Assembly (NCBI GenBank): GCA_025999455.1
Contig: AP024683.1
Span: forward strand, 2,177,501-2,241,500
Direction of reading: 5' to 3'
Source: Geminicoccaceae bacterium
GTDB taxonomy: Bacteria; Pseudomonadota; Alphaproteobacteria; Geminicoccales; Geminicoccaceae
DNA: 64,000 nt
The translations under genes were made by a program, and so were the position numbers. The notes under the pieces are model-generated. The model worked only from the letters and a program-made list of their open reading frames with translations. It searched no databases and was not told the origin of the DNA. Shown here piece after piece: positions 5,858 to 23,401 of the stretch (the stretch's first letter is position 1; the number at the start of each line of letters is the position of its first letter).

Positions 5858-7338
5858 GGATCCCCTCCTCCGATCGGATCGGCGAAGGCCGAGTCGGGCG
5901 GGTCCAGGGGCCAGATCGGCCGGCGGACGCGGCGGTAGGGTAGCCGCGCGAAATCCTGCGAGAGCGCACCCGGGCCGTTGATCCAGAGGATCTCGGCGGC
6001 GATCGGCGCGAAGCCGGCGTGGAAATGCTGCATCGATTTCACGACCACGAGCTTCTTGTCGGCGAGCGCGATGCCGTGGTCGGTGAAGAGCGCCGGGTCG
6101 AAGGCCTGGGTGCGGGTCGCGTTCAAGAGCACCTCGACGCCGCCCACCCGGATGGCCGCCACGTCGCCGAGCTGGGTCCAGCCCGGGCCGAAGCGTTGGC
6201 GCGCCCCTTCGGCCACCGCCAGGACCTCGGCCTCGACGTCGAGCGGCGGACCTGAGATCGGCCCCACCTTGCCGCCGATCCGCAAGGAAAGGCGCGCACC
6301 GGGGCCGGCCAGATGGCAGAAGCGGACCGCGACCGGGTCCCACAAGGGGCCGAGACAGGCGCGCTCGACCCGCCGCTCGAGCAGCCGGGCCAGGACGAAG
6401 GTACTGTCGGAGGGCGCACCACCACCCGCATTGTCGGCCGTGTCGGCGAGGACCACGGGACCGCGCGGCGCGGCGAGCGCCCGATCCAACCCCTCCTCGA
6501 GGCCGAGCACGGGCGCGGTCGTGTCGCCGCGCATGGCGCGGACCTCGCGCGCGAGCCGGTCGGCGAGCGCCTTGGCCCGCGCCCGGTCACCGTCGGCCAC
6601 GACCAGGACCTTGGCACCCAGATCCGGCACGTCACCCCAGGGGAAGCCGTGGGCGAGGGAGACCGAAAGGATGCCGTCGCGGCCCTCGAGCGCCTTCATC
6701 CGGTCGACGAAGCTCCGCACCGGCTCGCGCGGGGTGTGGAAGAGGGCGATCATCCGGCAGTCGGCGACGGCGGTGACGGGCCGGATCTCGCCGCGGGCCG
6801 CACGCAGCGCGAGGTCGACGAGCTCGCGGGCGCGCTCGAGCGTGTCGGTGTGCGGATATTCTTTGTAGAGGACGAGGAGGTCGGCAGCCTCGAGCATCGC
6901 CTCCGTCAGGTGGCAATGCGGATCGAGCTCGGCGCCGATCACCACCGCCGGACCCACCCGGGCGCGCACCGCGCGCAACAGATCGCCCTCGCAGTCCTCG
7001 CAACCTTCGGCGATCATCGCGCCGTGCAGGCTCAAGAGCACGATGTCGACCGGGAGCGCCGCTTCGAGCTCGGCGAGCACCCGACCGCGCAGCTCCCGCC
7101 AGGCGGCGGCGGTCGTGAGGCCGGCCGGGGCGGCGAAGGCCTGCAGGCCTTCGATCAGGGTGAGGCCTTCGGCGCGCGCCCGCTCACGCGCGGCGATCAG
7201 GGGCCCGGTGAAGAAGCGGGCCTCCTCGGGGTGCGTTCCGGGCTCGAACCAGAGATATTCGCGGAAGCTCGCGATGCCGGTCGGGATCGGCGAGAAGCTG
7301 TCGGTCTCGGTCCCGACCGCCGCTGCGAAGATGCGCAT
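5854..7338 (-). CDS. M81 family metallopeptidase (MlrC-like)
   Basis: This 494-residue protein belongs to peptidase family M81, named for MlrC of microcystin degradation. It has the N-terminal MlrC domain with LHGAM and the likely zinc-binding GAELDPHCHLTE, and the C-terminal domain with DTADNAGGGAPSDSTF. The ATG at 7338 gives the usual start MRIFAAAVGTETDSFSP. In other bacteria such proteins usually accompany peptide transporters and their natural substrates are mostly unknown. Here it forms a two-gene operon with a gamma-glutamyltransferase through a 4-base overlap. Confidence 0.9.
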   Translation of the reverse strand: MRIFAAAVGTETDSFSPIPTGIASFREYLWFEPGTHPEEARFFTGPLIAARERARAEGLTLIEGLQAFAAPAGLTTAAAWRELRGRVLAELEAALPVDIVLLSLHGAMIAEGCEDCEGDLLRAVRARVGPAVVIGAELDPHCHLTEAMLEAADLLVLYKEYPHTDTLERARELVDLALRAARGEIRPVTAVADCRMIALFHTPREPVRSFVDRMKALEGRDGILSVSLAHGFPWGDVPDLGAKVLVVADGDRARAKALADRLAREVRAMRGDTTAPVLGLEEGLDRALAAPRGPVVLADTADNAGGGAPSDSTFVLARLLERRVERACLGPLWDPVAVRFCHLAGPGARLSLRIGGKVGPISGPPLDVEAEVLAVAEGARQRFGPGWTQLGDVAAIRVGGVEVLLNATRTQAFDPALFTDHGIALADKKLVVVKSMQHFHAGFAPIAAEILWINGPGALSQDFARLPYRRVRRPIWPLDPPDSAFADPIGGGDP

Positions 7339-10893: not shown

Positions 10894-12096
10894 TCAAAGG
10901 CGGCTCGTCACGACGGTAGCATCGGCGCGTCGGGTCACGTCCGGCAAGAGGCGCGTGCCGAGCCCGGGGCCGTCCACGGGGTGGATCCAGCCCTGCTCGA
11001 TGCGCGGCAGGTCGGTCACGAGCTCCTTGTACCAGCCGGTGTAGAAGGCGCGCACGCTCTCCTGCACGAGCGCGTTCGGGGCGTTCAAGGAGAGGTGGCA
11101 GGAGGCCACGAACACGACGGGACCGGTGCAGTCGTGCGGGGCCACGGGGAGGTGGTGGGCCTCGGCCATCGTCGCGATCTTCTTGGCCTCGGAGAGGCCG
11201 CCACACCAGGCGATGTCGAGCATCACGACACCGACCGCGCGCTGCGCCATCATCTGCCGGAAGAGCGGCCGGGTCGCAACCGTCTCGGAGGCGGTGATCG
11301 GCACGCGGGTGCTCGCGGCGAGGTCGGCCAAGGCTTCGAAATCGTTCATCTTGATGGGATCTTCGAACCAGAAGGGCTCGATCTCCTCGAGCGCGGCGAA
11401 GATCCGTTTGGCGGTCGGCACGTTCCACAAGGAGTGGAACTCGACCATGATGTCCATCTTCGAGCCGACCGCCTTCCTGATCTTGCGGAACGGCTCCATC
11501 GCCGCCTCGAGCTCCTCGGGCGAGATGTAGAGCCCGCCCCAGCGTTCGGCCGCGACGTCGAACGGCCAGATCTTCATGGCCGAGATACCCTGCTCGAGCA
11601 GCGAGTGCGCGAGCTCGTCGGCACGGTGCAGGAAGGCGTCGAGATCTTCGTAGGGTCCTTCCTGCGCGTCGAGGCCCCAATTCTCGGTGAGCTGGCCCTT
11701 CGCGCCGCGCACGTAGCGGTAGCCCGCACAGGTGTTGTAGGTGCGGATCTTGGGCCGCGAGAGGCCGCCCAGGAGCTGCCAGATCGGCTGGCCGGTCGCC
11801 TGACCCCAGATGTCCCAGAGCGCGATGTCGATCGCCGAGGCCCCACGCAGCTCCGCCCCGCTCGAGGCGAAGCCGAGATAGTAGTCGTGGAGCAGCGTGC
11901 GCGCATGGCGGTCGATCGCGAGCGGATCCTTGCCCAGAAGGCGCGGGGCCGCGGTCTCGTGGACATAGGCCTCGACGGCCTTGGGCCCGAAGAAGGTCTC
12001 ACCGAGCCCGACGAGGCCCTGGTCGGTGTGCACCCGCACCCAGAGCAGGTTGGGGAACTCGTCGAGCCGGATCGTCTCGATCGCCTCGATCCGCAT
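10894..12096 (-). CDS. Mandelate racemase/muconate lactonizing enzyme family protein, probable sugar-acid dehydratase
   Basis: A 400-residue enolase-superfamily enzyme. The expected metal ligands are Glu219 (MVEFH), Glu245 (WFEDP) and Glu271 (TASE). A lysine in AMKIWPFD (about 175) and His321 (APHDCTG) are candidate acid/base residues. The Glu-Phe-His arrangement at 219-221 resembles acid-sugar dehydratases such as D-galactonate dehydratase more than mandelate racemase. The likely reaction is dehydration of a sugar acid to a 2-keto-3-deoxy acid. Near it lie a LacI regulator and TRAP transporter, which would fit sugar-acid use. Confidence 0.87.
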   Translation of the reverse strand: MRIEAIETIRLDEFPNLLWVRVHTDQGLVGLGETFFGPKAVEAYVHETAAPRLLGKDPLAIDRHARTLLHDYYLGFASSGAELRGASAIDIALWDIWGQATGQPIWQLLGGLSRPKIRTYNTCAGYRYVRGAKGQLTENWGLDAQEGPYEDLDAFLHRADELAHSLLEQGISAMKIWPFDVAAERWGGLYISPEELEAAMEPFRKIRKAVGSKMDIMVEFHSLWNVPTAKRIFAALEEIEPFWFEDPIKMNDFEALADLAASTRVPITASETVATRPLFRQMMAQRAVGVVMLDIAWCGGLSEAKKIATMAEAHHLPVAPHDCTGPVVFVASCHLSLNAPNALVQESVRAFYTGWYKELVTDLPRIEQGWIHPVDGPGLGTRLLPDVTRRADATVVTSRL

Positions 12097-12242: not shown

Positions 12243-13457
12243 TCACCCCGGGGACGGGGCCACCAGCCCTCGCATGATCCGCTCCAGGCTCTCGGCGGCC
12301 CGCGACCAGCGTGCGGTGCGATCGACCTGGGCGCGCGCCGCGGCGCCGAGCCGAGCGGCGAGCTGGCGGTCCTCGATCAAGCGCAACAAGGCCTCGGCGA
12401 AGCAATCGGTGTCGCCGTCCGGACAAAGGAGCGCCGTCTCGCCGTGGACGACACCCGGTGCGGCCCCCGCGAAGGACACGATCGGCCGGCCGGCGGCCAT
12501 GTAGTTCAAAAGCTTGACCGGCGTGCCGTCGGCGTCGGTGCGAGGGTTCGCGGCGACGTCGGCTTCCGCCAGGAGCGCCGGCAGCTCGGCGAACGGGACC
12601 GCCGGGCGCAAGTCGACGCGCTCGGTGAGCCCGAGCGCCGCGATTCGCGAGCGCAACGACGCGGTGTCACCGTCGAGCGAGAGGACCAGCTCCGCGGAGG
12701 GGTGCCGACGCGCGAGCTTCGCGAAGGCGTCCAACAAGAGGTCGAGCCGTTGATAGGGAGCCGGGTTGCCGGTGAAGAGGATCCGCGGCGGTCGCGCCTG
12801 GTCGAGCGGGCCGGCCGGCGGCACGGACGCGAAGTGGTCGACCTCGACCCCGTTCGGGACGGTCGAGACGCGCTCGGCGGGCAGACCGAGCTCACCGATC
12901 AGCTTGTCGCGGATCCGTTCGGTCACGGTCGTCACGTGGTCGGCGCGGCGCGGCAGCGTCCGATCGAAGAGGAGGGCCAGGCGGCGGACCGGACCGGTCG
13001 GTAGGTAGCCCAGATAGCTCGGCAATTCCGAGGCGAGGAGCGTGTGCACGTCGAAGATCACGGGCGGGCACGACCGCAGGCCCCGACGCGCCGCCAGGGC
13101 GACGAGGACGCCCTCGAAATGGTGTGCGTAGACGACATCGGCCGGCGCTCGCGCGAGCTCGCTTCGCAGGGTCCAGGCGAGTTGCGGGTCGAGCGCGACG
13201 AGCTTGGCGATCGAAGGGCCCGGCGACGCCTTGCGGTAGCCGAGGCCGTGGGCTAGGCGCCTGATCGTGAGCCGATCATCCGCTGCACCTTTTCCCAAAT
13301 GGTAGGTCACGACGCGGACGCGATGGCCGCGGTCGAGAAGCGCTTCCGCCGTCCGCAGGATACGGATCGGCGTGCCGCGCGGGTAGGGGAAAGGGCAGGC
13401 CGCGACGACGACGATGTCGAGAGGTCGGTCCAAGCGAAAATCCGATCGAAGCAGCAC
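12243..13457 (-). CDS. Family 4 glycosyltransferase
   Basis: A 404-residue GT-B glycosyltransferase. The N-terminal half has a PYPRGTPIRI loop typical of acceptor binding near the start. The C-terminal half has the sugar-nucleotide site: ILFTGNPAPYQRLDLLLDAF, LAEADVAANPR and TPVKLLNYMAAGRPIV, in which the family's EX7E motif is only partly kept. It would transfer a sugar from a nucleotide donor to a surface glycan or lipid. It is divergent from the LacI regulator (128-base gap), and 146 featureless bases separate it from the dehydratase gene. Confidence 0.85.
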   Translation of the reverse strand: MLLRSDFRLDRPLDIVVVAACPFPYPRGTPIRILRTAEALLDRGHRVRVVTYHLGKGAADDRLTIRRLAHGLGYRKASPGPSIAKLVALDPQLAWTLRSELARAPADVVYAHHFEGVLVALAARRGLRSCPPVIFDVHTLLASELPSYLGYLPTGPVRRLALLFDRTLPRRADHVTTVTERIRDKLIGELGLPAERVSTVPNGVEVDHFASVPPAGPLDQARPPRILFTGNPAPYQRLDLLLDAFAKLARRHPSAELVLSLDGDTASLRSRIAALGLTERVDLRPAVPFAELPALLAEADVAANPRTDADGTPVKLLNYMAAGRPIVSFAGAAPGVVHGETALLCPDGDTDCFAEALLRLIEDRQLAARLGAAARAQVDRTARWSRAAESLERIMRGLVAPSPG

Positions 13458-13585
13458 GCGATCCGGGCGGGTCGGCCGGGTGGCGGGACGATCGCACCGA
13501 GAGCCGCGGCTCGTAAAGCGCCGTGGTCGAAAGGTGCGGCGCGGCCCGCGCGGTGGTTCCCTCGGGGTACGACCGGGCGACGCAC

Positions 13586-14605
13586 GTGACGCGACGGCCG
13601 ACGATCAAGGACGTGGCGCGGGCCGCCGGCACTTCGACGGTCACGGTCTCGCGCGTCGTCAACGCCCCGCATCTCGTCCAGCCGGCCACCCGGGCCCGGG
13701 TCGAGCAGGCGATGCGCGAGCTCGGCTACGTGCCGAACCTCGCCGCGCGCTCGATGCGCACCCGGCTCACCCGCTCGGTGGGCTTCCTCACCCCCGAACT
13801 CACGAGCCTCACCAACGCCGCGGTGGCGCAGGCCTGCGAGCAGGCGCTCTCGGAAGCCGGCTACGGCATGCTCTTGACCTCGAGCGACTACCGGGTCGAG
13901 CGCGAGCTCCAGGCCCTCGAGCTCCTGCGCCAGCGCCAGGTCGACGGCCTCGTCCTCTACCTCTCGGACGAGGAGGATCCCGCACTCCTGCGGGCGGTGC
14001 GCGAGCTCGACGTGCCGCTAGTCGTGCTCGACCGGGAGATCGAGACGGGCGATCGGGTCCTGACCGAGCATCGGGGCGCGCTCTCGACGGCGGTCCGCCG
14101 GCTCCTCGCGATGGGGCATCGTCGCTTCGCCCTCCTGCAGCCCGATCTCGCGACCCGCCCGGTCCGCGAGCGGCGCGCGGCGGTCGAAGAGACGCTCGCC
14201 GCGGCCGGGATCGGCGCCGCAGGGCTCGTGCGGATCGCCGTGCCGCCGGCGGCGCTCGACAAGGCGCTCGTCCCCGCCGAGCGGCTCGCCGGGCCGGATC
14301 GGCCCACCGCTTTCCTCGTCGAAGGCAGCCGGCTCCTGCGCGCCGCGCTCCTGGCCTTGCGGGCGGCCGGGCTCGAGGTGCCGAAGGACGTCTCGCTCGT
14401 CGCGATCGACGCCGAGGAGGCGGCGAGCCTCACCACCCCCGAGACGACCCGGATCGCCCGCGATTTCGCGGCGATCGGGCGGACCGCGGCGGCCCTTCTC
14501 CTGCGCCGGCTCGCACGACCGAACCTGCCGCGCCAGGAGGTCGTGCTCGAGAGCCGGCTCGTGCTCGGGGCCTCCTGCGCGCCGCCGCCGGCATCCTCTG
14601 CCTGA
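13586..14605 (+). CDS. LacI family transcriptional regulator
   Basis: A 339-residue repressor-type protein. The GTG at 13586 gives the usual start directly before the helix-turn-helix (TIKDVARAAGTSTVTVSRVV, residues about 5-25), followed by the hinge (ELGYVPNLAARSMRT) and a periplasmic-binding-protein-like ligand domain to the end. Upstream in-frame starts would add an unlikely extension. It lies just before a TRAP transporter operon. An imperfect LacI-type palindrome begins 4 bases after its stop codon and overlaps the TRAP promoter, and a perfect one lies before the phyH gene. These are its likely targets (inference). Confidence 0.9.
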   Translation: MTRRPTIKDVARAAGTSTVTVSRVVNAPHLVQPATRARVEQAMRELGYVPNLAARSMRTRLTRSVGFLTPELTSLTNAAVAQACEQALSEAGYGMLLTSSDYRVERELQALELLRQRQVDGLVLYLSDEEDPALLRAVRELDVPLVVLDREIETGDRVLTEHRGALSTAVRRLLAMGHRRFALLQPDLATRPVRERRAAVEETLAAAGIGAAGLVRIAVPPAALDKALVPAERLAGPDRPTAFLVEGSRLLRAALLALRAAGLEVPKDVSLVAIDAEEAASLTTPETTRIARDFAAIGRTAAALLLRRLARPNLPRQEVVLESRLVLGASCAPPPASSA

Positions 14606-14608
14606 TCG

Positions 14609-14641
14609 CCTGTTGACGTTTTCATCGGCGCTCGCGAGAGT
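14609..14641 (+). promoter_or_regulatory. TRAP operon promoter with LacI-type operator
   Basis: TTGACG (14613-14618, -35) and GAGAGT (14636-14641, a weak -10) have 17-base spacing. Bases 14609-14626 match the perfect operator at 19456-19473 at 12 of 18 positions, 8 of 9 in the right half (ACGTTTTCATC), with CG at the same centre. An operator over the -35 would allow repression. Confidence 0.5.
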
Positions 14642-14697
14642 GCGACGAGCCGCCGCACCGGGCGGCCGCGGGGCGAAAACGCACAGGGAGGGACGGC

Positions 14698-15729
14698 ATG
14701 CGGACAGGGATCGCGAGCTTCGCCGCGGCGGGGCTCATGATGCTCGCCGGCAACGCCGAGGCGCAGCAGACCTGGAAGGTCCAGACCTCGATGCAGGCGG
14801 GCGAATTCTTCTACCAGGTCATCGAGAAGCACTGGCTGCCCGTGTTGGCCGAGATGACCGAAGGCAAGCTCAAGCTCGAGCTCACCCCGGCCAACTCGGT
14901 GGTGCCCTACAACGAGACGATGGACGCGATCGCCCAGGGCGTACTCCAGGGCGACTTCACCGCCACCGTCTATTTCGCCGGCCGCAACAAGGCCTTCGCG
15001 ATCCTGGGCGATCTCGTGGCGGGCTACGATCATCCCGACCAGCTCATGGCCTATTGCTACCACGGCGGCGGCCGCGAGCTCTTGCAGGAACTGTTCGACA
15101 AATATTCGGGCGGTGGGGTCAAGGTGATCGGCTGCGCCCCGGTCGCCCGGGAGTCCTTCACCGCCAAGGTGCCGATCCGCACGATCGACGACCTCAAGGG
15201 CAAGAAGATGCGCTCGCCCGAGGGTCTGACGGCCGAGGTCTTCAAGCGCGCCGGCGCCTCGACCGTGGCGCTGCCGGCTTCCGAGGTCTACACGGCACTC
15301 GAGAAGGGCGTCGTCGACATCGCCGACTTCTCGACCTACACCATGGACAAGAGCTTCGGCCTCCACAAGATCGCCAAATATCCGATCTATCCCGGCATCC
15401 ATTCGATGCCGGTCCTCCAGTTCACGGTCAACAAGGCGGCCTGGGAGAAGCTGCCGAAATCGCTGCAGACCACGCTCGACGTCTGGTACCGGGCGATGAT
15501 CCACGATCTGCGGATGCGCAACGACATCTCCGACCGCGAGCTCGTGGCGCAAGACGCGGCCGACAAGGCGAGCGGCATGGAGATCGTCAACTGGAGCCAG
15601 AAGGACCGCGACGCGCTGCGCAAGATCGCCCGCGGTGCGTGGGAAGACTTCGCCAAGGGCGACCCGCTCGCGACCAAGGCGTACGAATCGAACATCGCCT
15701 TCATGAAGAAGATGGGCCTGCTCGACTGA
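14698..15729 (+). CDS. dctP: TRAP transporter substrate-binding protein (DctP family)
   Basis: A 343-residue periplasmic binding protein of a tripartite ATP-independent transporter. A Sec signal peptide covers about residues 1-22 (cleavage near AEA-Q). The family pattern DLKGKKMRSPEGLTAEVFK includes the arginine that normally binds the substrate carboxylate, and the helix MKKMGLLD closes the protein. RBS AGGGAGGGACGGC precedes the ATG. Substrates of this family are usually organic or sugar acids, in keeping with the nearby dehydratase. A strong hairpin separates it from dctQ. Confidence 0.92.
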   Translation: MRTGIASFAAAGLMMLAGNAEAQQTWKVQTSMQAGEFFYQVIEKHWLPVLAEMTEGKLKLELTPANSVVPYNETMDAIAQGVLQGDFTATVYFAGRNKAFAILGDLVAGYDHPDQLMAYCYHGGGRELLQELFDKYSGGGVKVIGCAPVARESFTAKVPIRTIDDLKGKKMRSPEGLTAEVFKRAGASTVALPASEVYTALEKGVVDIADFSTYTMDKSFGLHKIAKYPIYPGIHSMPVLQFTVNKAAWEKLPKSLQTTLDVWYRAMIHDLRMRNDISDRELVAQDAADKASGMEIVNWSQKDRDALRKIARGAWEDFAKGDPLATKAYESNIAFMKKMGLLD

Positions 15730-15755
15730 GCGGCCGCGTCCGACGGGGGTGAGGA

Positions 15756-15785
15756 GCGTCCGGGCCCGGGGCGGGGCCCGGACGC
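15756..15785 (+). terminator. Strong GC hairpin between dctP and dctQ
   Basis: GCGTCCGGGCCC and GGGCCCGGACGC form a perfect 12-base stem around a 6-base loop, in the 75-base gap after dctP. There is no T-run. It probably protects the 3' end of the binding-protein message or reduces read-through, so that more binding protein than membrane subunit is made. Confidence 0.55.
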
Positions 15786-15804
15786 GCGCGGGGAGGGGCG
15801 TGCC

Positions 15805-16278
15805 GTGATCGACCGCGTCAATCGCTGGCTCGGCGAACATCTCTCTTGGCTCTACTTGGTCGCGGTCGCCGCCACGGCGTACGAAGTCGTGATGCGCTAC
15901 GTCTTCAACGCGCCCACCGATTGGGCGTTCGAGCTCACGATCCTGCTCTGTGGGATCTGTTATCTCCTGGCCGGTGGCTACGTCACCCAGAAGGACGTGC
16001 ACATCGCGATCACGAGCCTGCTCGACATCGCCCCGGCACCGGTCCGCCGCGGCTTGCGGATCTTCGCGACGCTCGTCGGGATCCTCGCGAGCGCGGGCCT
16101 CCTCTGGTCGGCCTGGGGGCCGGCACTGCGGGCCGCCACGATCGTCGAGCGGACCGGGAGTGCTTGGAACTCGCCCGCGCCCGCGATCATCAAGCCCTTG
16201 ATCGCGCTCGCCGCGCTGCTCGTGCTCCTGCAGCTCCTGGTCCGCCTCGGCCGTCAGCTCCGCGGCCGCGAGACCTGA
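15805..16278 (+). CDS. dctQ: TRAP transporter small permease (DctQ family)
   Basis: The 157-residue small membrane subunit of the TRAP system. It starts at a GTG preceded by GGGAGGGGCG. Four hydrophobic segments are visible, with the family features FELTILLCGICYLLAGGYV and a following basic/acidic QKDVHIAI loop. It pairs with DctM to form the sodium- or proton-driven membrane part. The large subunit follows after 40 bases. Confidence 0.9.
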   Translation: MIDRVNRWLGEHLSWLYLVAVAATAYEVVMRYVFNAPTDWAFELTILLCGICYLLAGGYVTQKDVHIAITSLLDIAPAPVRRGLRIFATLVGILASAGLLWSAWGPALRAATIVERTGSAWNSPAPAIIKPLIALAALLVLLQLLVRLGRQLRGRET

Positions 16279-16318
16279 CCCGCCGACCCCGCCCGCCGCC
16301 GATCCGGGAGAGCCCGCC

Positions 16319-17632
16319 TTGCCCATCGAGACCATCACGCTGCTCGTCGTGGCCGCGATGCTGCTCTTGATGCTGGCGGGCGTGCCGCTCGCCTGGATCA
16401 TGATGACGATCGCCGTCGGCAGCACGCTCGCCTGGCTCGGGCCGGCGGGCCTGCCGCTCGTCGCGAGCCGGGTCTACGGCTTCGTTTCCGAATACGTCTT
16501 CGTGGCCGTGCCGCTCTTCGTCCTCATGGCCTGCATCCTCGAACGCTCGGGCGTGGCCAAGGACCTGTACGACGCCATGCGCCTCCTGGCCGGCCGGCTG
16601 CCCGGTGGTGTGGCGGTCCAGACCACGCTCGTCGCCATCGTCATGGCGGCCATGACCGGCATCATCGGCGGCGAGGTCGTGCTCTTGGGCCTGATCGCCC
16701 TGCCGCAGATGCTGCGCCTGGGTTACGACCGGCGCCTCGCGATCGGCGTCATCTGCGCCGGCGGCTCGCTCGGCACGATGATCCCGCCGTCGGTCGTGCT
16801 GCTGGTCTACGGGCTGACGGCCGGGGTCTCGATCGGCGATCTCTTCCTCGCCGCCGTGCTGCCGGGCCTCCTCCTGGGCTCGCTCTACGTCGGCTACGTG
16901 ATGCTGCGCTGCTGGCTCGACCCGGCGCTCGGGCCGCCGGCCCCGCCCGAGGAGCTGGCCGTGCCCCTGGCCGAGAAGCTGCGGCTGCTCAAGGGCCTTA
17001 TCCTGCCGATCCTGATCATCGTCTGGGTCCTGGGCTCGATCTACGGCGGGATCGCCTCGGTCACCGAATCGGCCGGGGTGGGGTGCGTGGGGGCCATCCT
17101 TTCGGCCGCGATCCGCCGCGAGCTCACGCTCGAGATGCTCAAAGGTGCCTTGATCCAGACGATGACGACGGTGGGCGTCATCATCTGGCTCACGCTCGGC
17201 GCCAACGCCTTCATCGGCATCTACAACATCATGGGCGGGACGGGTTACCTGCGCGGCCTGCTCGCGGGCTTGCCGCTGCCGCCGCTCGGCATCGTCCTCG
17301 TGATGATGGTGATCCTCCTCGTCCTCGGCTGCATCATCGACTGGATCGGCATCTGCCTTTTGACGATGCCGATCTTCGTGCCGGTCGTCAAATCCCTCGG
17401 CTACGATCCGGTCTGGTTCGGCGTGCTCTTCTGCATGAACATGCAGGTGAGCTATCTGACCCCGCCCTTCGGCCCGGCCGCGTTCTATTTGAAGGGCGTG
17501 GCACCACCCGACGTCACGCTGCAGGAGATCTTCGGCTCGGTCTGGCCCTTCGTGGGTCTCCAGCTCGTCGGCCTCACGGTCGTCCTGCTGTTCCCCGGGA
17601 TCGCGCTCTGGCTGCCGTCGCTCGGCGGGTGA
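16319..17632 (+). CDS. dctM: TRAP transporter large permease (DctM family)
   Basis: The 437-residue large membrane subunit of the TRAP importer, with about 12 hydrophobic segments. Recognisable family stretches are GGSLGTMIPPSVVLLVYG and SYLTPPFGPAAFYLKGVAP. It starts at a TTG with a GGGAG site about 9 bases upstream, and no ATG or GTG fits better. It completes a dctPQM operon. The gene ends 21 bases before the convergent DUF3011 gene. Confidence 0.92.
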   Translation: MPIETITLLVVAAMLLLMLAGVPLAWIMMTIAVGSTLAWLGPAGLPLVASRVYGFVSEYVFVAVPLFVLMACILERSGVAKDLYDAMRLLAGRLPGGVAVQTTLVAIVMAAMTGIIGGEVVLLGLIALPQMLRLGYDRRLAIGVICAGGSLGTMIPPSVVLLVYGLTAGVSIGDLFLAAVLPGLLLGSLYVGYVMLRCWLDPALGPPAPPEELAVPLAEKLRLLKGLILPILIIVWVLGSIYGGIASVTESAGVGCVGAILSAAIRRELTLEMLKGALIQTMTTVGVIIWLTLGANAFIGIYNIMGGTGYLRGLLAGLPLPPLGIVLVMMVILLVLGCIIDWIGICLLTMPIFVPVVKSLGYDPVWFGVLFCMNMQVSYLTPPFGPAAFYLKGVAPPDVTLQEIFGSVWPFVGLQLVGLTVVLLFPGIALWLPSLGG

Positions 17633-17653
17633 GGGGTGGTGTGCGGGCCGGGC

Positions 17654-18454
17654 TCAGCGACGCCCACCGCGCCAGAGACCGGATTGGCGGAACGCCACGA
17701 TCTCCTTCCCGCCCGCGAAATCGACCCGGCAATCGATCGTTCCGCGGCTCGTGTCGCCGCGCCGCCAATCGGCTCGCGCGACCGCCTCGAGCTCGAGCTT
17801 CTTGCCGCGCTCGCGCGCCCGCTCGATGCGGAGGATCTTGCCGCCACGGCCGCCGCGATCCCGCACCTCCCGATCGAGCCGGCGCTCGCAGAGGGCCACC
17901 GCCTCACGCTTGCGGTTCTTGTCGTTCTCGTCGCCGGAGAGGAGCGCCGCCGCCGCACCGCCGGCCACGATCGCGCCCAGGATCAAGAGCGCGGTGCCGC
18001 CGTCGATGCCGGAACCGCTCGTCGCCGCGCGATCCTCGGCCCGCGCGGCCGGGTCGTCGGTCGGGGCGGGCGCGGTGTCGGGAGCGGGTCCGGCCACGCG
18101 GAACTCGCCGCGGCAGCCTTTGTCGACCCAGATGCCGGCACCGTCGAAGCCCCAGGTCGAGCGCGCGACGCAGCGGCCGGTCGAGAGCTCGCGCGCGAGC
18201 ACCACGCCGGCCGAGGTGTCGGCCGGGCAGCGACGGAAGCTGCCGTCGCTTTCGCAGCGCAGCGTCCGTCCGGGTTCCGCGCCGGGCATCGCCCGTGGGC
18301 CGGGATCGCTCGCCGCGGGCGGGGCCGTGCTGCCGCCGGACGGTGGCGAGGCGGTGAGCGCCCATGCCGGCCGGCTCGGCCCGAGCCCCACGAGTTGGGC
18401 CGCGACGAGGGTCGTCGCGAGCCACCGCCGCCCGGCCCCGACCTCGTTCCGCAT
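17654..18454 (-). CDS. DUF3011 domain secreted or membrane-anchored protein
   Basis: A 266-residue protein with an N-terminal signal sequence (about 1-32), a Pro/Ser-rich linker, and a DUF3011-type cysteine-containing domain (about 65-120) with LRCESDGSFRRCP, RCVARSTWGFDGAGIWVD and CRGEFRVAG. A hydrophobic helix (TALLILGAIVAGGAAAALL, about 153-171) follows, then a charged C-terminal region with two further cysteines. The function of DUF3011 is unknown; in other proteins it looks like a small disulfide-stabilised periplasmic domain. It lies 78 bases beyond phyH in the same direction. Confidence 0.75.
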   Translation of the reverse strand: MRNEVGAGRRWLATTLVAAQLVGLGPSRPAWALTASPPSGGSTAPPAASDPGPRAMPGAEPGRTLRCESDGSFRRCPADTSAGVVLARELSTGRCVARSTWGFDGAGIWVDKGCRGEFRVAGPAPDTAPAPTDDPAARAEDRAATSGSGIDGGTALLILGAIVAGGAAAALLSGDENDKNRKREAVALCERRLDREVRDRGGRGGKILRIERARERGKKLELEAVARADWRRGDTSRGTIDCRVDFAGGKEIVAFRQSGLWRGGRR

Positions 18455-18496
18455 GACCCGCTCCCCGGCGAACGCCGGTCGCAGGATAGAGCGGGT

Positions 18497-18521
18497 GCGG
18501 CGGCCGACAACGGGCCGCCGC
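18497..18521 (-). terminator. GC stem-loop after the phyH gene
   Basis: GCGGCGGCC and GGCCGCCGC form a 9-base stem around a 7-base loop, 12 bases beyond the phyH stop. Without a T-run it is a weak candidate terminator separating phyH from the DUF3011 gene. Confidence 0.35.
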
Positions 18522-18532
18522 GCGCTTCCCGC

Positions 18533-19441
18533 TCAGGCGTGCACGGGCACCTTCTTCGGGGCCTCGGCCGTGCCGAAATAGCGCTGCTTCAAGCTGCGCT
18601 GGTTCTCGTAGATCGAGCCTTGATGCTTGGCCGGCGGCAGCGGCAGCCGGACCGGGACGGGCTCGAGGCGCGGGGCGACCGGGTCGGTCGCGCCACAGAG
18701 CAGGAGTGCGTTCCACTCCTCCATGCTCTTGGGCATGAGCGCGGGCACGAGCGGCCAGGCATCGGCGGCGCGGTACTGGAAGAGCAGCAGGCGGCGCGGC
18801 CGATCCGAGGTGTTGACGGCCGAGCCGTGCACGGTGCGGGCGTGGTGGATCGAGATCGAGCCGGCCGGGCCGAGGCAGGGCACCGCCGCCTCGTAATCGA
18901 CCTCGCGCCGCGCCGGGTCCATGGCGCCGCAGAAATAGCCTTCGTCGTCGTGATGGTCGAAGATCGGCCCCTTGTGCGTGCCGGGGATGCACAGGAGCGG
19001 GCCGTTCTCGAGGGCGACGTCGTCCATGAACACGCCCACCGCCGCGAGATCGTCGTTGGTGTGCGGGTAGAAGGCCCAGTCCTGGTGCCATTCGACGGCC
19101 GCCCCGTAGCCCGCCGCCTTCATGTTGAGCTTGGAGGTGTCGAAGCGGATGGCCGGGGCCACGAGCTTCTGCAGGATCGCGAGGATGTTCGGGTGGCGCA
19201 TGACCCGGTCGAACACCGGGTGCACCTTGTGCGGGGTCTTGATCCGCCGCACCCGGGGCTCCTCGGGGCTGTGGCTGTCCTCGAGGTCGTAGACCTCGTC
19301 GTGGGTGCGGACCGCGCGCGCCTTCTCGACGAGCTCGTCGGTGACCGCGCGGAGCTCGGCCACCTCGGCCGGGCTCAACACGTTCTCGACGACGAGGAAC
19401 CCGTCCCGCCGGTACCGTTCGACTTCCGCCTCACCGATCAT
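18533..19441 (-). CDS. Phytanoyl-CoA dioxygenase (PhyH) family protein
   Basis: A 302-residue Fe(II)/2-oxoglutarate-dependent oxygenase. The iron-binding triad is His119 and Asp121 (WHQDW) plus His205 (TVHGSAVN). Arginines in SDRPRRLLL are placed to bind 2-oxoglutarate. A hydroxylation of a small molecule is likely, but the family is broad and the substrate is not predictable. The ATG at 19441 sits 7 bases after GGGGAGG; a GTG one codon upstream is also possible. A perfect LacI-type operator overlaps its promoter, linking it to the nearby LacI regulator. Confidence 0.9.
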   Translation of the reverse strand: MIGEAEVERYRRDGFLVVENVLSPAEVAELRAVTDELVEKARAVRTHDEVYDLEDSHSPEEPRVRRIKTPHKVHPVFDRVMRHPNILAILQKLVAPAIRFDTSKLNMKAAGYGAAVEWHQDWAFYPHTNDDLAAVGVFMDDVALENGPLLCIPGTHKGPIFDHHDDEGYFCGAMDPARREVDYEAAVPCLGPAGSISIHHARTVHGSAVNTSDRPRRLLLFQYRAADAWPLVPALMPKSMEEWNALLLCGATDPVAPRLEPVPVRLPLPPAKHQGSIYENQRSLKQRYFGTAEAPKKVPVHA

Positions 19442-19455
19442 CACCGAACCTCCCC

Positions 19456-19499
19456 GATGGAAACGTTTCCATCGTACAGCCCGCCCGGGGTCCGGGCAA
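19456..19499 (-). promoter_or_regulatory. phyH promoter overlapped by a perfect LacI-type operator
   Basis: On the minus strand, TTGCCC (19499-19494) and TACGAT (19476-19471) have exactly 17-base spacing. The 18-base perfect palindrome GATGGAAACGTTTCCATC at 19456-19473 has the central CG typical of LacI-family operators and covers part of the -10 and the expected start of transcription, so a bound protein should block initiation. The likely binder is the regulator encoded at 13586 (inference). Confidence 0.7.
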
Positions 19500-19565
19500 G
19501 CCCGCCCTCACCCGCATCCGGACATGGCCCCCCGGCGCCGGTGGGCGGTGATCGACGACGAGCGC

Positions 19566-20360
19566 TCAGCGTCGGGGCAGCAGCAATTGCGCGCCGCCCA
19601 GGAGGCCGACCGATATCACGATCAGAAGCGAGGAGATGGCGGCGATCGTGGGGTCCACCTGGTCGCGCAGGCCCGTGAACATGCGGCGGGTCAGGGTCGA
19701 CATCTCGCCGCCCGAGACGAAGAGGGCGACGACGACCTCGTCGAGCGAGGTCACGAAGGCGAGCACCGCGGCCGCGGCGAGCGAGCGTTCGAGCTGGGGC
19801 AGGACGACCGTCAGGAAGGCGCGGAGCGGCGACGCACCGAGCGAGCGCGCGACCCGCTCCTGGTCGAGGTCGATCCGCCGCAGCCCGGCATCGACGAGCA
19901 CGACGACGAAGGGGAGTGCGAGCGCGGTGTGGGCGAGGACGAGGCCCGTCATCGTGTTGACGAGGCCGAGCCGCACGTAGAGGTAGAAAATCCCGATCGC
20001 GAGGATGATCACGGGCACCACGAGCGGGGCCACGAGGGCGGCGCGCAGGACCCGGGCGGTCCGACCACCGGCCCGATGCAGGCCGTAGGCCGCGGCGAGC
20101 CCGAGCGGGGTGGCCAAGACCGTGGTGAGCAGGGCCGCGAGGAGCGAGATCCGGGTCGCCCGCATCCAATCCGCGGAGCCGAGATAGGCCTCGTACCAGC
20201 GCAGCGACCAGGCCCGTGGCGGGAATTCGAGATATTGGCTGTCGGAAAAGCTCATCGGCAGGACGATGAAGACCGGCAGCACGAGGAAGGCGAGCACGAG
20301 CAGGGCGAGGGCCGCGAGCCAGGCCCGTCGCCAGGGCGCGATCCAGGGCTCGGCGCTCAC
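19566..20360 (-). CDS. Polyamine-type ABC transporter permease (PotC-like)
   Basis: A 264-residue inner-membrane permease of the spermidine/putrescine family, starting at a GTG that overlaps the previous stop. There are six hydrophobic segments, the early FSDSQYLEFPP segment typical of PotC/PotI, and the EAA-type loop ERVARSLGASPLRAF. It is the last gene of a four-gene operon with binding protein, ATPase and a second permease. The following phyH gene has its own promoter. Confidence 0.9.
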   Translation of the reverse strand: MSAEPWIAPWRRAWLAALALLVLAFLVLPVFIVLPMSFSDSQYLEFPPRAWSLRWYEAYLGSADWMRATRISLLAALLTTVLATPLGLAAAYGLHRAGGRTARVLRAALVAPLVVPVIILAIGIFYLYVRLGLVNTMTGLVLAHTALALPFVVVLVDAGLRRIDLDQERVARSLGASPLRAFLTVVLPQLERSLAAAAVLAFVTSLDEVVVALFVSGGEMSTLTRRMFTGLRDQVDPTIAAISSLLIVISVGLLGGAQLLLPRR

Positions 20361-21259
20361 GACCGGCTCACGAGGAGGCGCTCGAGCGGGACGAGCCGGG
20401 CGAGGAGCGCGAACATGGCGAGCGTCGCGAGGAGCAACACGACGGCGAGCGCCGAAGCCGCCCCCCAGTCGAGGTAGAGGCCGGCATTCTCCTGGACCTT
20501 CATGGCGACCATGAGGACACGGCCGCCGCCCAGGATCGCGGGCGTGACGTAGAAGCCGAGCGCCAGGACGAAGACCAAGAGGCAACCGGCGAGGAGGCCG
20601 GGGAGCGAGAGCGGGAAGAAGACCGTCCAGAAGGCGCGCACGGGCGAGGCCCCGAGGCTCGCCGCGGCGGCGAGATAAGCGGGGTCGATCGCGCGCAGGC
20701 TCGCATAGGCCGGCAGGACCAAGAAGGGCAGCAGGATGTGGAGCATCCCGATCACCGTGCCGGTCCAGTTGTGGACGAGGCGCAAGGGCTCCTCGATCAG
20801 CCCGAGGTCGAGCAGCGCGCGATTGACGAGCCCCCGGCGCTGCAAGAGCACGAGCCAGGCGTAGGTGCGGACGAGGAGCGAGGTCCAGAAGGGAACGAGG
20901 ACAAGGACGAGGCCGACATTCGCCCAGCGTTCGGGCAGCCGCGAGAGCCAATACGCGAGCGGGTAGCCGAGCAGGGCGGCCAGGATCGTGACGACCGCGG
21001 CGATCTCGAAGGTCGTCCAGAAGATCCGCCGATACGATTCTACCTGGATCAAGCGGAGATAGTGCGCGGCCGAGAAGCTCTCCCCTTCGATCACGGAAAG
21101 CCAGAAGAGCCACCCCGTCGGCAGGAGCGCCACCGCACCCACGAGGAGGAGCGCGGGTGCAGCGAGCACCAGGGCGCGACGGCGTTCGCGCCGCGCGTCG
21201 CGGGCGAGGGCCGCGGCCTCGGGCTCGTCGGGGCCGGCGCGCGCCCGGGCGGAAGCCAT
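20357..21259 (-). CDS. Polyamine-type ABC transporter permease (PotB-like)
   Basis: A 300-residue permease, partner of the PotC-like protein. The ATG at 21259 overlaps the ATPase stop (ATGA). Six membrane segments follow a charged N-terminus of about 35 residues. The EAA-type loop is LAAAASLGASPVRAFWTVFF, and LVRTYAWLVLL and LGFYVTPAILGGGR are typical of PotB/PotH. Together the two permeases would form the translocation channel. Confidence 0.9.
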   Translation of the reverse strand: MASARARAGPDEPEAAALARDARRERRRALVLAAPALLLVGAVALLPTGWLFWLSVIEGESFSAAHYLRLIQVESYRRIFWTTFEIAAVVTILAALLGYPLAYWLSRLPERWANVGLVLVLVPFWTSLLVRTYAWLVLLQRRGLVNRALLDLGLIEEPLRLVHNWTGTVIGMLHILLPFLVLPAYASLRAIDPAYLAAAASLGASPVRAFWTVFFPLSLPGLLAGCLLVFVLALGFYVTPAILGGGRVLMVAMKVQENAGLYLDWGAASALAVVLLLATLAMFALLARLVPLERLLVSRS

Positions 21260-22335
21260 CAGCCCGTCTCGCTCACGAGCACGGCATCCTCGGGGGCGAA
21301 CCACGCCCAGACGGTGCCGCCGCGCCGGATCGAATCCGAAAGCTCCGCACCGGTGGGGAGCCGAACGGCCAAAAGCTCGCCCGCCTCCAGGCGGATCTCG
21401 GCCAAGAGGCTCTCGCCCTGGAAGACCAGGTCCTCGAGCGTGCCGGCGAGCGTGTTGACCGGCTCGGCCGGTGGGCTCGTCGCGAGGCGGACCCGTTCGG
21501 GACGGAGCACGAGGTGGAGCGGCTCGCCCGGTGGGAGGGGCCGGGTGGTCCGGAGCGGACGCCCGGCACAGAAGAGGGCGCCGTTCCGTCGCTCGACCGG
21601 TAGGATCGTCGATTCGCCCACGAACTCGGCGACGAAGCGCGAGCGCGGTTCCTCGTAGAGGAGGCGTGGCGGGTCGAGCTGACGGATCCGGCCGCCGTCG
21701 ATCACCGCGACCCGGTCGGACAGCGTCAAGGCCTCGCGCTGGTCGTGGGTGACGTAGATCGTCGTGATGCCGAGCCGTTCGTGCAGCTGCCGGATCTCGA
21801 TTTGCATCGCCTCGCGGAGCTTCTTGTCGAGCGCCGAGAGCGGCTCGTCCATCAGGAGCACGCGCGGCTCGAAGACGATCGCCCTGGCGAGCGCCACCCG
21901 CTGCTTCTGCCCCCCGGAGAGTTGGTCCGGGCGACGGTCGCCGAACCCCTCGAGGCGGACGAGGGCCAGCGCCTCGGCGACCCGCCGGGCCATCTCGGCG
22001 CGCGGCCGACCGCGCATGCGCAGGGGATAGGCGACGTTCTGGGCGACCGTCATGTGCGGGAAGAGGGCGTAGCTCTGGAAGACCACGCCGAAGTCGCGCC
22101 GGTGCGGCGGGGTGCGGGTGACGTCCTCGCCGCCCACGACGATCCGGCCGCTCGTGGGCCGGGTGAAGCCCGCGAGCACCATGAGGAGCGTGGTCTTGCC
22201 CGAACCCGAGGGGCCGAGGAGCGTCAAGAACTCACCCGGCGCGACCTCGAGCGAGACGCAGTCGAGTGCCGCGACCGCGCCGTAGAGCTTCGTAACCGCT
22301 TCGAAGCGGATCCCGACCGGTGCCCGACGATCCAT
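21259..22335 (-). CDS. Polyamine-type ABC transporter ATP-binding protein (PotA-like)
   Basis: A 358-residue ATPase of the importer. Walker A is GPSGSGKTT (about 42-50), the Q-loop is VVFQSYALFPH, the signature is LSGGQKQRVALARA, and Walker B is VLLMDEPLSALD, followed by the switch histidine in THDQREAL. The C-terminal third is a TOBE domain, typical of the PotA/MalK/FbpC group. The gene sits 19 bases after the binding-protein gene and overlaps the first permease gene. Confidence 0.93.
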   Translation of the reverse strand: MDRRAPVGIRFEAVTKLYGAVAALDCVSLEVAPGEFLTLLGPSGSGKTTLLMVLAGFTRPTSGRIVVGGEDVTRTPPHRRDFGVVFQSYALFPHMTVAQNVAYPLRMRGRPRAEMARRVAEALALVRLEGFGDRRPDQLSGGQKQRVALARAIVFEPRVLLMDEPLSALDKKLREAMQIEIRQLHERLGITTIYVTHDQREALTLSDRVAVIDGGRIRQLDPPRLLYEEPRSRFVAEFVGESTILPVERRNGALFCAGRPLRTTRPLPPGEPLHLVLRPERVRLATSPPAEPVNTLAGTLEDLVFQGESLLAEIRLEAGELLAVRLPTGAELSDSIRRGGTVWAWFAPEDAVLVSETG

Positions 22336-22354
22336 ACCCGCGAAGGACGAGGGC

Positions 22355-23401
22355 TCAGCGGGTCTTCCAAGCGTCCCAGCGCTCCTGCATCTTCTGCCGG
22401 TGGACGGCCCAAAAGCGGGCGTCGATCACGAGCTGCTTCTTGGCGTTGTCCGGACTCGACGGGCTGATCTTCGCCATCTCGGGCGTGATCTTGCCGGTCT
22501 CGAAGGCCTTGCTCGTGGTCGGCCCGTAATTGATGTAGAGCGGCATGTTGGCCTGCAGATCGGGGGCCACCATCCGGGCCAGGGCCTTCATCGCCAGATC
22601 CTTGTTCTTGCTGCCTTTGATGACGGCGAGGCAGTCGAGCGAGAGGATCCCGTCGTCGTAGGAATAGGTGAATTTGGCGCCGTCCTTGATGACCGTGTCG
22701 AGGCGACCGTTCCAGATCGAGAGCATGTCGACCTCGCCGTCCTTGGCGAGCTGGGCCGACTGCGCCCCCGACTTCCACCAGACCGTGATGTGTGATTTGA
22801 TCTCGTCGAGCTTCTTGAAGGCGCGCTGCACGCCCTCCTCGGTCGCGAGCACCTGGTAGACCTGATCCTTCGGCACGCCGTCGACCAGGAGCGCGATCTC
22901 GAGGTTCGGCGTCGGATAGTCGCGCAGCGAGCGGACACCCGGGAAGCCCTTCACGTCCCAGAAGTCCTTCCAGCCGAGCGGCGTTTTGTCTTTGTATTTT
23001 TCCGTGGAGTAGCCCAATACCGTCGAATAGTAGATGATCCCGATCCAATGCGTGTCGAAGGCCATCTTGTCGAAGCCTTCCGTCGAGATCAACGAATAAT
23101 CGAGCGGCTCGAGCAGCCCCTCGCTCTGCGCGGCGGCGCAATCGGCGAGGCCGAGATCGACGATGTCCCAGCTCACGGCACCGGCGCGGACCTGGGCACG
23201 GACCTCGGCGATGCCGGTCAAGGTGTCCTCGACCCAGGTGATCCCGAGCTCCTTGGCGACCGGCTCGAGCAGGGCCTTGCGCTGGGCTTCCTGGTAGGCG
23301 CCGCCGAAGGAGGTGAAGGCGAGCTTCTGTTGCGCCTCGGCCGTACCCACCGCCGCGATCAGCGCGAGTGCGGCGGCACCGGCCAGGAACGTCGTGCGCA
23401 T
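22355..23401 (-). CDS. Polyamine-type ABC transporter substrate-binding protein (PotD-like)
   Basis: A 348-residue periplasmic binding protein. The ATG at 23401 gives a Sec signal peptide (about 1-23, cleavage after AEA). The mature start KLAFTSFGGAYQEAQ and the stretch SLDCLAVIKGSKNKDLA resemble the PotD/PotF group. It is first in the operon with ATPase and two permeases, and is divergent from a PuuB-like oxidase, so polyamines or related amines are the likely cargo (inference from context). Confidence 0.9.
   Translation of the reverse strand: MRTTFLAGAAALALIAAVGTAEAQQKLAFTSFGGAYQEAQRKALLEPVAKELGITWVEDTLTGIAEVRAQVRAGAVSWDIVDLGLADCAAAQSEGLLEPLDYSLISTEGFDKMAFDTHWIGIIYYSTVLGYSTEKYKDKTPLGWKDFWDVKGFPGVRSLRDYPTPNLEIALLVDGVPKDQVYQVLATEEGVQRAFKKLDEIKSHITVWWKSGAQSAQLAKDGEVDMLSIWNGRLDTVIKDGAKFTYSYDDGILSLDCLAVIKGSKNKDLAMKALARMVAPDLQANMPLYINYGPTTSKAFETGKITPEMAKISPSSPDNAKKQLVIDARFWAVHRQKMQERWDAWKTR

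Follow-up and report, generated by a model that had tools for sequence, protein, structure and literature searches.

We analysed a stretch of 64,000 nucleotides from the genome of a Geminicoccaceae bacterium (contig AP024683.1, positions 2,177,501 to 2,241,500; called the window below), in which a gene for a LacI-family regulator, lacI1, is found near the genes of a tripartite ATP-independent periplasmic (TRAP) importer and a gene for a PhyH-family dioxygenase, phyH1. Comparison with related genomes indicates that LacI1 is quite probably the local repressor of a catabolic regulon, in which TRAP importers and PhyH dioxygenases would be co-induced via conserved operators. The genes and predicted sites at the locus are, in window coordinates:

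13586-14605, plus strand: lacI1, LacI-family regulator LacI1 of 339 amino acids, with helix-turn-helix (HTH) TIKDVARAAGTSTVTVSRVVN and effector domain Peripla_BP_3
14609-14626, no strand: putative imperfect operator over the TRAP promoter, core 14610-14625 = CTGTTGACGTTTTCAT
14613-14618, plus strand: TTGACG, by its sequence the likely -35 box of the TRAP promoter, within the operator
14698-15729, plus strand: dctP (TRAP1), TRAP solute-binding protein DctP (PF03480, 149 bits)
15805-16278, plus strand: dctQ, TRAP small permease DctQ (PF04290, 76.9 bits)
16319-17632, plus strand: dctM, TRAP large permease DctM (PF06808, 263.7 bits; TIGR00786 above cut-off)
18533-19444, minus strand: phyH1, PhyH-family Fe(II)/2-oxoglutarate dioxygenase (PF05721, 127.5 bits, cut-off 22)
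19456-19473, no strand: putative perfect palindromic operator, between the phyH1 -10 box and the start codon
19471-19499, minus strand: predicted phyH1 promoter, a weak match, TTGCCC (19499-19494), 17 bases, TACGAT (19476-19471)
10894-12096, minus strand: mandelate racemase/enolase-superfamily enzyme (PF13378/PF02746), a possible partner

Two putative operators at the locus

LacI1 has the HTH of the LacI family (PF00356, 68.7 bits against a Pfam cut-off of 27) and a C-terminal effector domain resembling sugar-binding proteins (PF13377, 96.6 bits, cut-off 26.5). It scored below all NCBIfam equivalog cut-offs for named LacI orthologs (RbsR, PurR, GntR, CcpA and others), the best being lactose_RbsR with 156.3 of 382 bits. 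DctP, DctQ and DctM were all above their Pfam cut-offs, which identifies the three genes as a TRAP transporter.

An earlier sequence-only reading of this DNA had proposed a perfect 18-base palindrome at 19456-19473, and the sequence there is its own reverse complement. The palindrome was also said to overlap a TTGCCC-N17-TACGAT promoter; it includes the last three bases of TACGAT, and the order on the minus strand towards phyH1 is TTGCCC, 17 bases, TACGAT, palindrome, GGGGAGG and GTGATG. The second proposed site, a match of 12 out of 18 bases at 14609-14626, is present as well (CCTGTTGACGTTTTCATC). It starts at the fourth base past the lacI1 stop (14605) and contains TTGACG, as expected from the claim that it covers the TRAP -35 box just past the regulator gene. 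The best guess for the -10 box of this promoter is GAGAGT (3/6), at a spacing of 17 from TTGACG. Since a strict sigma-70 scan of 13400-20000 reported no promoter-like sites, both promoters have to be regarded as weak matches.

With up to three mismatches, the 18-mer occurred once in the 64 kb, compared to a mean of 0.03 in shuffled sequence, and the genome search that the same reading had called for returned one place in 3.76 Mb. The site at 19456-19473 is also the only perfect TG-N4-CG-N4-CA palindrome in the window. To score further sites we used a matrix built from nine phyH/lacI intergenic sites of other genera only. In the window, this matrix ranked the phyH1 site first (27.7 bits) and the TRAP site second (23.4 bits), followed by a next best match of 11.1 bits. 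In 40 simulated 64-kb windows (first-order Markov sequences) the mean best score was 11.1 and the highest 16.6 bits. By sequence and conservation alone, the two sites have the features of LacI-type operators, being even palindromes with a central CG near promoters. The case for them as operators is one of conservation and not of palindromy. Another perfect 18-bp palindrome of the window is located at 7135-7152 (GAAGGCCTGCAGGCCTTC).

Conservation of the sites and their owner

When searching 30 other genomes of the order, LacI1 orthologs of at least 53% identity were found in ten, and these form one clade with LacI1. The genes lacI1 and phyH are divergent neighbours in G003, G004, G005, G029 and G030, five genomes that represent three other genera. 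All nine other Geminicoccaceae genomes that have both LacI1 and phyH harbour a site with at most four mismatches to ATGGAAACGTTTCCAT upstream of phyH; the best matrix scores in these regions were 23.9 to 28.7 bits, with six of the nine genomes having supplied training sites of the matrix. The operator was found in none of seven phyH homologs from genomes without LacI1, where the best 16-mer had five to eight mismatches and the best upstream scores were 0 to 13.1 bits. This comparison covered 17 of 21 phyH loci; two more (L043 and L044) were scored later, with 3.8 and 5.3 bits, and the contig-end loci L041 and L042 were left out. Upstream of the phyH homologs of two genomes without LacI1 (L037 in G001 and L040 in G026), palindrome-like 16-mers of another LacI type are found, ATGTTTGCGCAAACAC and ATGTTAGCGATAACAA. 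A search with a degenerate 14-mer across the order matched every one of the 31 genomes, too loose a result for defining regulons. In G023, of the same genus, the enolase-superfamily gene is kept (83%), while orthologs of lacI1, TRAP1 and phyH1 were not found at the cut-offs used; the remainder of the module has apparently been lost there.

The TRAP site differs from the palindrome at six positions, and TTGACG by itself is a common -35 sequence, so one could suppose that the phyH1 site is real, that the 12-of-18 match arose by chance and that only phyH1 is regulated. This is very unlikely, as the 16-mer core of the TRAP site is a single base off the phyH operators of G004, G005, G029 and G030, and a site of at least 17.6 bits is located between lacI and dctP in seven of the eight other genomes with TRAP1 beside lacI (G020, G021, G022, G024, G025, G003 and G029). 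The eighth, G030, had no such site between the two genes (best 6.1 bits). Moreover, the downstream half of the TRAP site varies between TTTTCA, TTACCA and TTATCA, and these same half-sites recur in phyH or lacI operators. Because a second site is present near the lacI start in G003 and G029, and a weaker one in G030, the comparison suggests that lacI is autoregulated in these three genomes.

A central CG does not by itself name the owner of a site, since LacI-family sites share it; the main text of the LacI survey PMC4052901 gives it for 1173 of 1303 regulators. We therefore considered whether the palindrome belongs to another LacI protein or to an unlinked regulator. The genome has only two LacI-type HTH matches, LacI1 and a second protein, LacI2 (C1:3344502-3345599). 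LacI2-like proteins (36-46%) occur in G003, G004, G005 and G030, which all carry LacI1, and this counts against an assignment to LacI1. However, at E <= 1e-45 the other members of the genus (G020-G024) lack a LacI2 ortholog, and yet the predicted operators stand in G020, G021, G022 and G024. We therefore rejected LacI2 as the owner. Ownership by another LacI-family protein had been named beforehand as the outcome that would overturn the sequence-only reading, and the genome comparison speaks against it. LacI2 precedes genes of a sugar-type ATP-binding cassette (ABC) importer (PF13407, PF00005 and PF02653), its own upstream region reaches a best matrix score of -3.2 bits, and the operator sites track LacI1 across four other genera. 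An owner other than LacI1 is thus extremely improbable.

The proposal that one LacI regulator acts on both operators and ties the TRAP importer and the dioxygenase into one regulon is, then, supported by the conservation of the sites, by their scores and by the exclusion of LacI2.

Related sets of phyH and importer genes

The degenerate core TGDHRACGWHHYCA was found at four places in the genome: the two window sites, one unclear place and C1:3310065. The last belongs to a third putative operator at C1:3310064-3310079 (23.4 bits by the matrix), some 65 to 81 bases upstream of another dioxygenase gene, phyH2, which is followed on the same strand by dctP2, dctQ2 and dctM2. PhyH2 is 28% identical to PhyH1, and the large permease and the binding protein are 60% and 37% identical to those of TRAP1. 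The regulon, as predicted from these sites, apparently extends to this second PhyH-TRAP set. In G021, a tandem of two phyH2-type genes precedes the same TRAP genes, with a 25.0-bit site 47 bases upstream. In G024 the phyH2 site is weak (13.5 bits, and 11.7 bits before a paralog), and in G020 and G022 the contigs end too close to the main phyH2 copy for site scoring. The phyH2-dctP2-dctQ2-dctM2 genes (C1:3305111-3309998, equal to L240:5111-9998) are followed by a gene for a class IV aminotransferase, and the set is adjoined by another TRAP system together with a GntR/UTRA regulator (L240:254-4229).

Among 26 places near the 14-mer core, only the four with two mismatches were looked at (668648, 2313132, 3503979 and 3606958). 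All four lie inside predicted open reading frames (ORFs) and were rejected; with the exception of 3503979 they scored 6.9 to 9.9 bits. A 17.8-bit match at C1:2154653-2154668 precedes an RTX-like ORF of low coding score, and a 12.5-bit match lies inside the ORF.

Several observations weigh against this assignment of sites and genes to one regulon. The window (71% G+C) contains six perfect 18-bp palindromes, which are thus no rarity in themselves, and the 14-base core at up to three mismatches shows no excess in the genome (26 places vs 28 for the reversed control). The training sites and the consensus were chosen by likeness to the palindrome of the sequence-only reading. The phyH homologs from genomes without LacI1 are more distant (46-66% identical), and their lack of sites may partly reflect relatedness. 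G020 has lacI1 and TRAP1, and phyH1 was not found there at E <= 1e-40, in an assembly of 260 contigs. In G005, lacI is followed by a non-orthologous TRAP system (large permease 27%) with no site (6.4 bits), and lacI1 of the window has no site upstream of its own gene, unlike lacI in G003, G029 and G030. The phyH2 site was seen in three genomes of the genus only. One phyH2 paralog of G020 has no site, nor do more distant phyH2 homologs in other genera, including those of the LacI1-bearing G025 and G030 (51-55% and 48%). Elsewhere in the class, a TRAP component was located within 1.5 kb of only eight of 28 phyH2 relatives.

Related gene sets were also found in a wider survey, which lists 80 named phyH loci out of at least 590 confirmed ones. 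On a betaproteobacterial contig without LacI1 (L142), homologs of phyH1, phyH2, dctP2 and dctM2 stand together on one strand, and in L149 homologs of phyH1 and phyH2 are separated by 2.3 kb. Such joint loci are few (two of the 80 listed), and they are found outside the family.

A divergent LacI gene was present within 600 bases in 17 of the 80 listed phyH loci. LacI1 accounts for three of these genes; the remaining 14 come from different lineages, and nine of them are titled Bradyrhizobium. Nine of the 14 were placed in a tree and form a clade apart from LacI1, the tree being made by a quick method with several rows from outside the order cut at the N-terminus. A tenth row in this group, L140, is near phyH and not divergent. 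Central-CG palindromes with at least seven of eight pairs were found, in a count made without a control, in 11 of 13 such upstream regions, and their sequence differs, for instance ATGTTAGCGCTAACAT. In seven Bradyrhizobium loci (L152, L153, L155, L159, L162, L163 and L165), tandem palindromes ATGTTAGCGCTAGCAT and ATGTTAGCGCTAACAT are located upstream of phyH, with a divergent LacI gene of the other clade. In all three loci examined (Bradyrhizobium L153, Reyranella L139 and Paraburkholderia L147), phyH is followed by a gene for a major facilitator superfamily (MFS) transporter, the proteins being nearest to metabolite/H+ or galactonate models at scores under the cut-offs.

Like the LacI1 loci, the pairs of Bradyrhizobium, Reyranella, Rhodospirillales and Paraburkholderia combine a divergent LacI gene with central-CG palindromes, and their PhyH proteins are 54-60% identical to PhyH1. 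They differ in their separate LacI clade, in their operator (ATGTTAGCGCTAACAT in several Bradyrhizobium) and, in the three loci examined, in having an MFS transporter and not a TRAP system. LacI, PhyH and importer apparently recur as a set that was reached by at least two LacI lineages.

Possible cargo, regulation and known systems

PhyH1 harbours WHQD at 118 and HHARTVHGS at 199, and with PF05721 it shows the HxD...H motif, which we take to be the iron ligand of the PhyH family. Across 12 aligned homologs these motifs are invariant, except for two residues after HHAR. PhyH1 is not an ectoine hydroxylase by TIGR02408 (69.5 of 336.5 bits), and its best PDB match reached only 75 bits. An AlphaFold model from 12 sequences had a mean predicted local distance difference test score (pLDDT) of 43 and was not used. 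The nearest solved relatives of DctP1 are 4pe3 and 2zzv, followed by chains labelled lactate-binding TTHA0766, and the same holds for DctP2. The match of DctP1 to 2zzv, presumably the same protein as TTHA0766, covers nearly its full length.

An enolase-superfamily gene is the immediate downstream neighbour of phyH in G029 and G030. In G002 the two are one gene apart, and in the genome studied here and in G022, G024 and G025 they lie within about 12 kb of each other. In G029 and G030 the enolase-superfamily gene is followed by another of the same superfamily and by a gene of the RraA-like (aldolase/RraA) type, and an Amidohydro_2 gene follows TRAP1. In the window, the enolase-superfamily gene at 10894-12096 has no operator of its own (best upstream score -6.9). 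Its product remained below the cut-offs of named sugar-acid dehydratases, the best being galactonate dehydratase with 202.5 of 311 bits. The gene content of the module fits the breakdown of a hydroxy- or sugar-acid-like carboxylate, without naming the compound. Of the proposal that the cargo is probably a sugar acid, a tentative version is left, given the lactate-type relatives of the binding protein and an enolase-superfamily enzyme that resembles sugar-acid dehydratases at scores under the cut-offs. The further proposal, that the imported compound is what the dioxygenase acts on, is favoured by the repeated pairing of PhyH with TRAP genes and may be correct.

The regulator could also be shared while the substrates are separate, with phyH1 serving the cargo of the adjacent PotABCD-type importer or a compound made by the cell itself. 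In the genome studied here phyH1 comes 121 bases after the ABC permease gene, on the same strand. It follows the same operon on the same strand in G024, and in G025 too, there with an opposite-strand amidohydrolase-like gene in between; this arrangement also argues against a link between phyH1 and the TRAP cargo. On the other hand, phyH is found with lacI and TRAP1 in G003, G029 and G030, where no potD homolog was detected at E 1e-10 in the 19-20 kb examined. TRAP genes come right after phyH2, in a set with the same type of operator, and phyH is followed by an MFS gene in the three loci outside the order. We consider separate substrates unlikely. The PotABCD-like operon itself is located upstream of phyH1 at 19566-23401, and its binding protein scored 38.6 bits, far below the PotD cut-off of 582. 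Downstream of phyH1, on the same strand, a gene for a DUF3011 protein (17654-18454) shows lower conservation in G021 and G024 (55-66%) and was not found in the examined stretches of G022 and G025. It is probably outside the module.

Under the preferred reading of LacI1 as a local repressor, the predicted operators, their owner and the gene sets are well supported by the comparison. Repression and its release by an effector would be expected from what is known of the LacI family, and from their context the dioxygenases may act on TRAP cargo. Effector-free LacI1 would bind a 16-18 bp palindrome with a consensus of about ATGKWRACGTTWYCAT and a central CG. Bound just downstream of the phyH1 -10 box and across the TRAP1 -35 box, it would block RNA polymerase or its start. 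A small imported carboxylate, or its product, would then release LacI1, upon which importer and dioxygenase would be induced together. The third operator would put phyH2 and the paralogous TRAP importer under the same control. The purpose of such a regulon is probably the breakdown of a carboxylate.

More tentatively, and with rather less confidence than we have in the regulon itself, the arrangement could represent an undescribed catabolic strategy, in which each of two paralogous TRAP importers has a PhyH-type dioxygenase of its own as partner and a single LacI repressor controls them all. A carboxylate that resists ordinary dehydratases would first be opened up by the PhyH enzymes, for example through the introduction of a hydroxyl that it lacks or through oxidative demethylation at O or N; an enolase-superfamily dehydratase would act next. 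On at least two occasions PhyH genes of this kind would have been brought under a LacI regulator, the operators and importers being different ones.

The PhyH dioxygenases EvdO2 (4xab), leucine hydroxylase (5nch) and ectoine hydroxylase EctD share PF05721 and HxD...H with PhyH1, which differs from them in its transport-linked and, as predicted from sequence, LacI-controlled locus. TRAP systems with lactate- or keto-acid-binding proteins (TTHA0766 chains, 2zzv and 7ug8) have DctP, DctQ and DctM in common with the systems described here, of which, in contrast, there are two paralogous ones, both accompanied by PhyH enzymes and by the same type of operator. As described in the main text of PMC4052901, the local LacI regulons of sugar and sugar-acid metabolism (GntR, IdnR, UxuR, KdgR and others) have the same HTH and Peripla_BP effector domain, an even central-CG palindrome close to the promoter, a small number of targets in a cluster with the regulator and, in some divergent pairs, more than one site, as is the case here. 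The targets, however, are PhyH dioxygenases and TRAP importers, unlike in those regulons; the words TRAP, oxygenase and phyH do not occur in that main text (supplements and database excluded). The sequence-only reading had called the link between importer and dioxygenase one that it had not seen described. This holds within the open-access literature searched, as far as its texts were accessible: no description of LacI, TRAP and PhyH in combination was found there, and co-mentions of phytanoyl-CoA dioxygenase and TRAP stand in unrelated sections.

Neither the regulator nor its sites are out of the ordinary; it is the gene content that is unusual. For many PhyH enzymes of bacteria a substrate is not known. 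As the conserved operator groups two PhyH enzymes with two importers, and the binding proteins of the latter can be screened for ligands, the question of the dioxygenase substrate becomes testable. The comparison also provides a case of related enzymes that came to be controlled by two distinct LacI lineages, each with its own operator.

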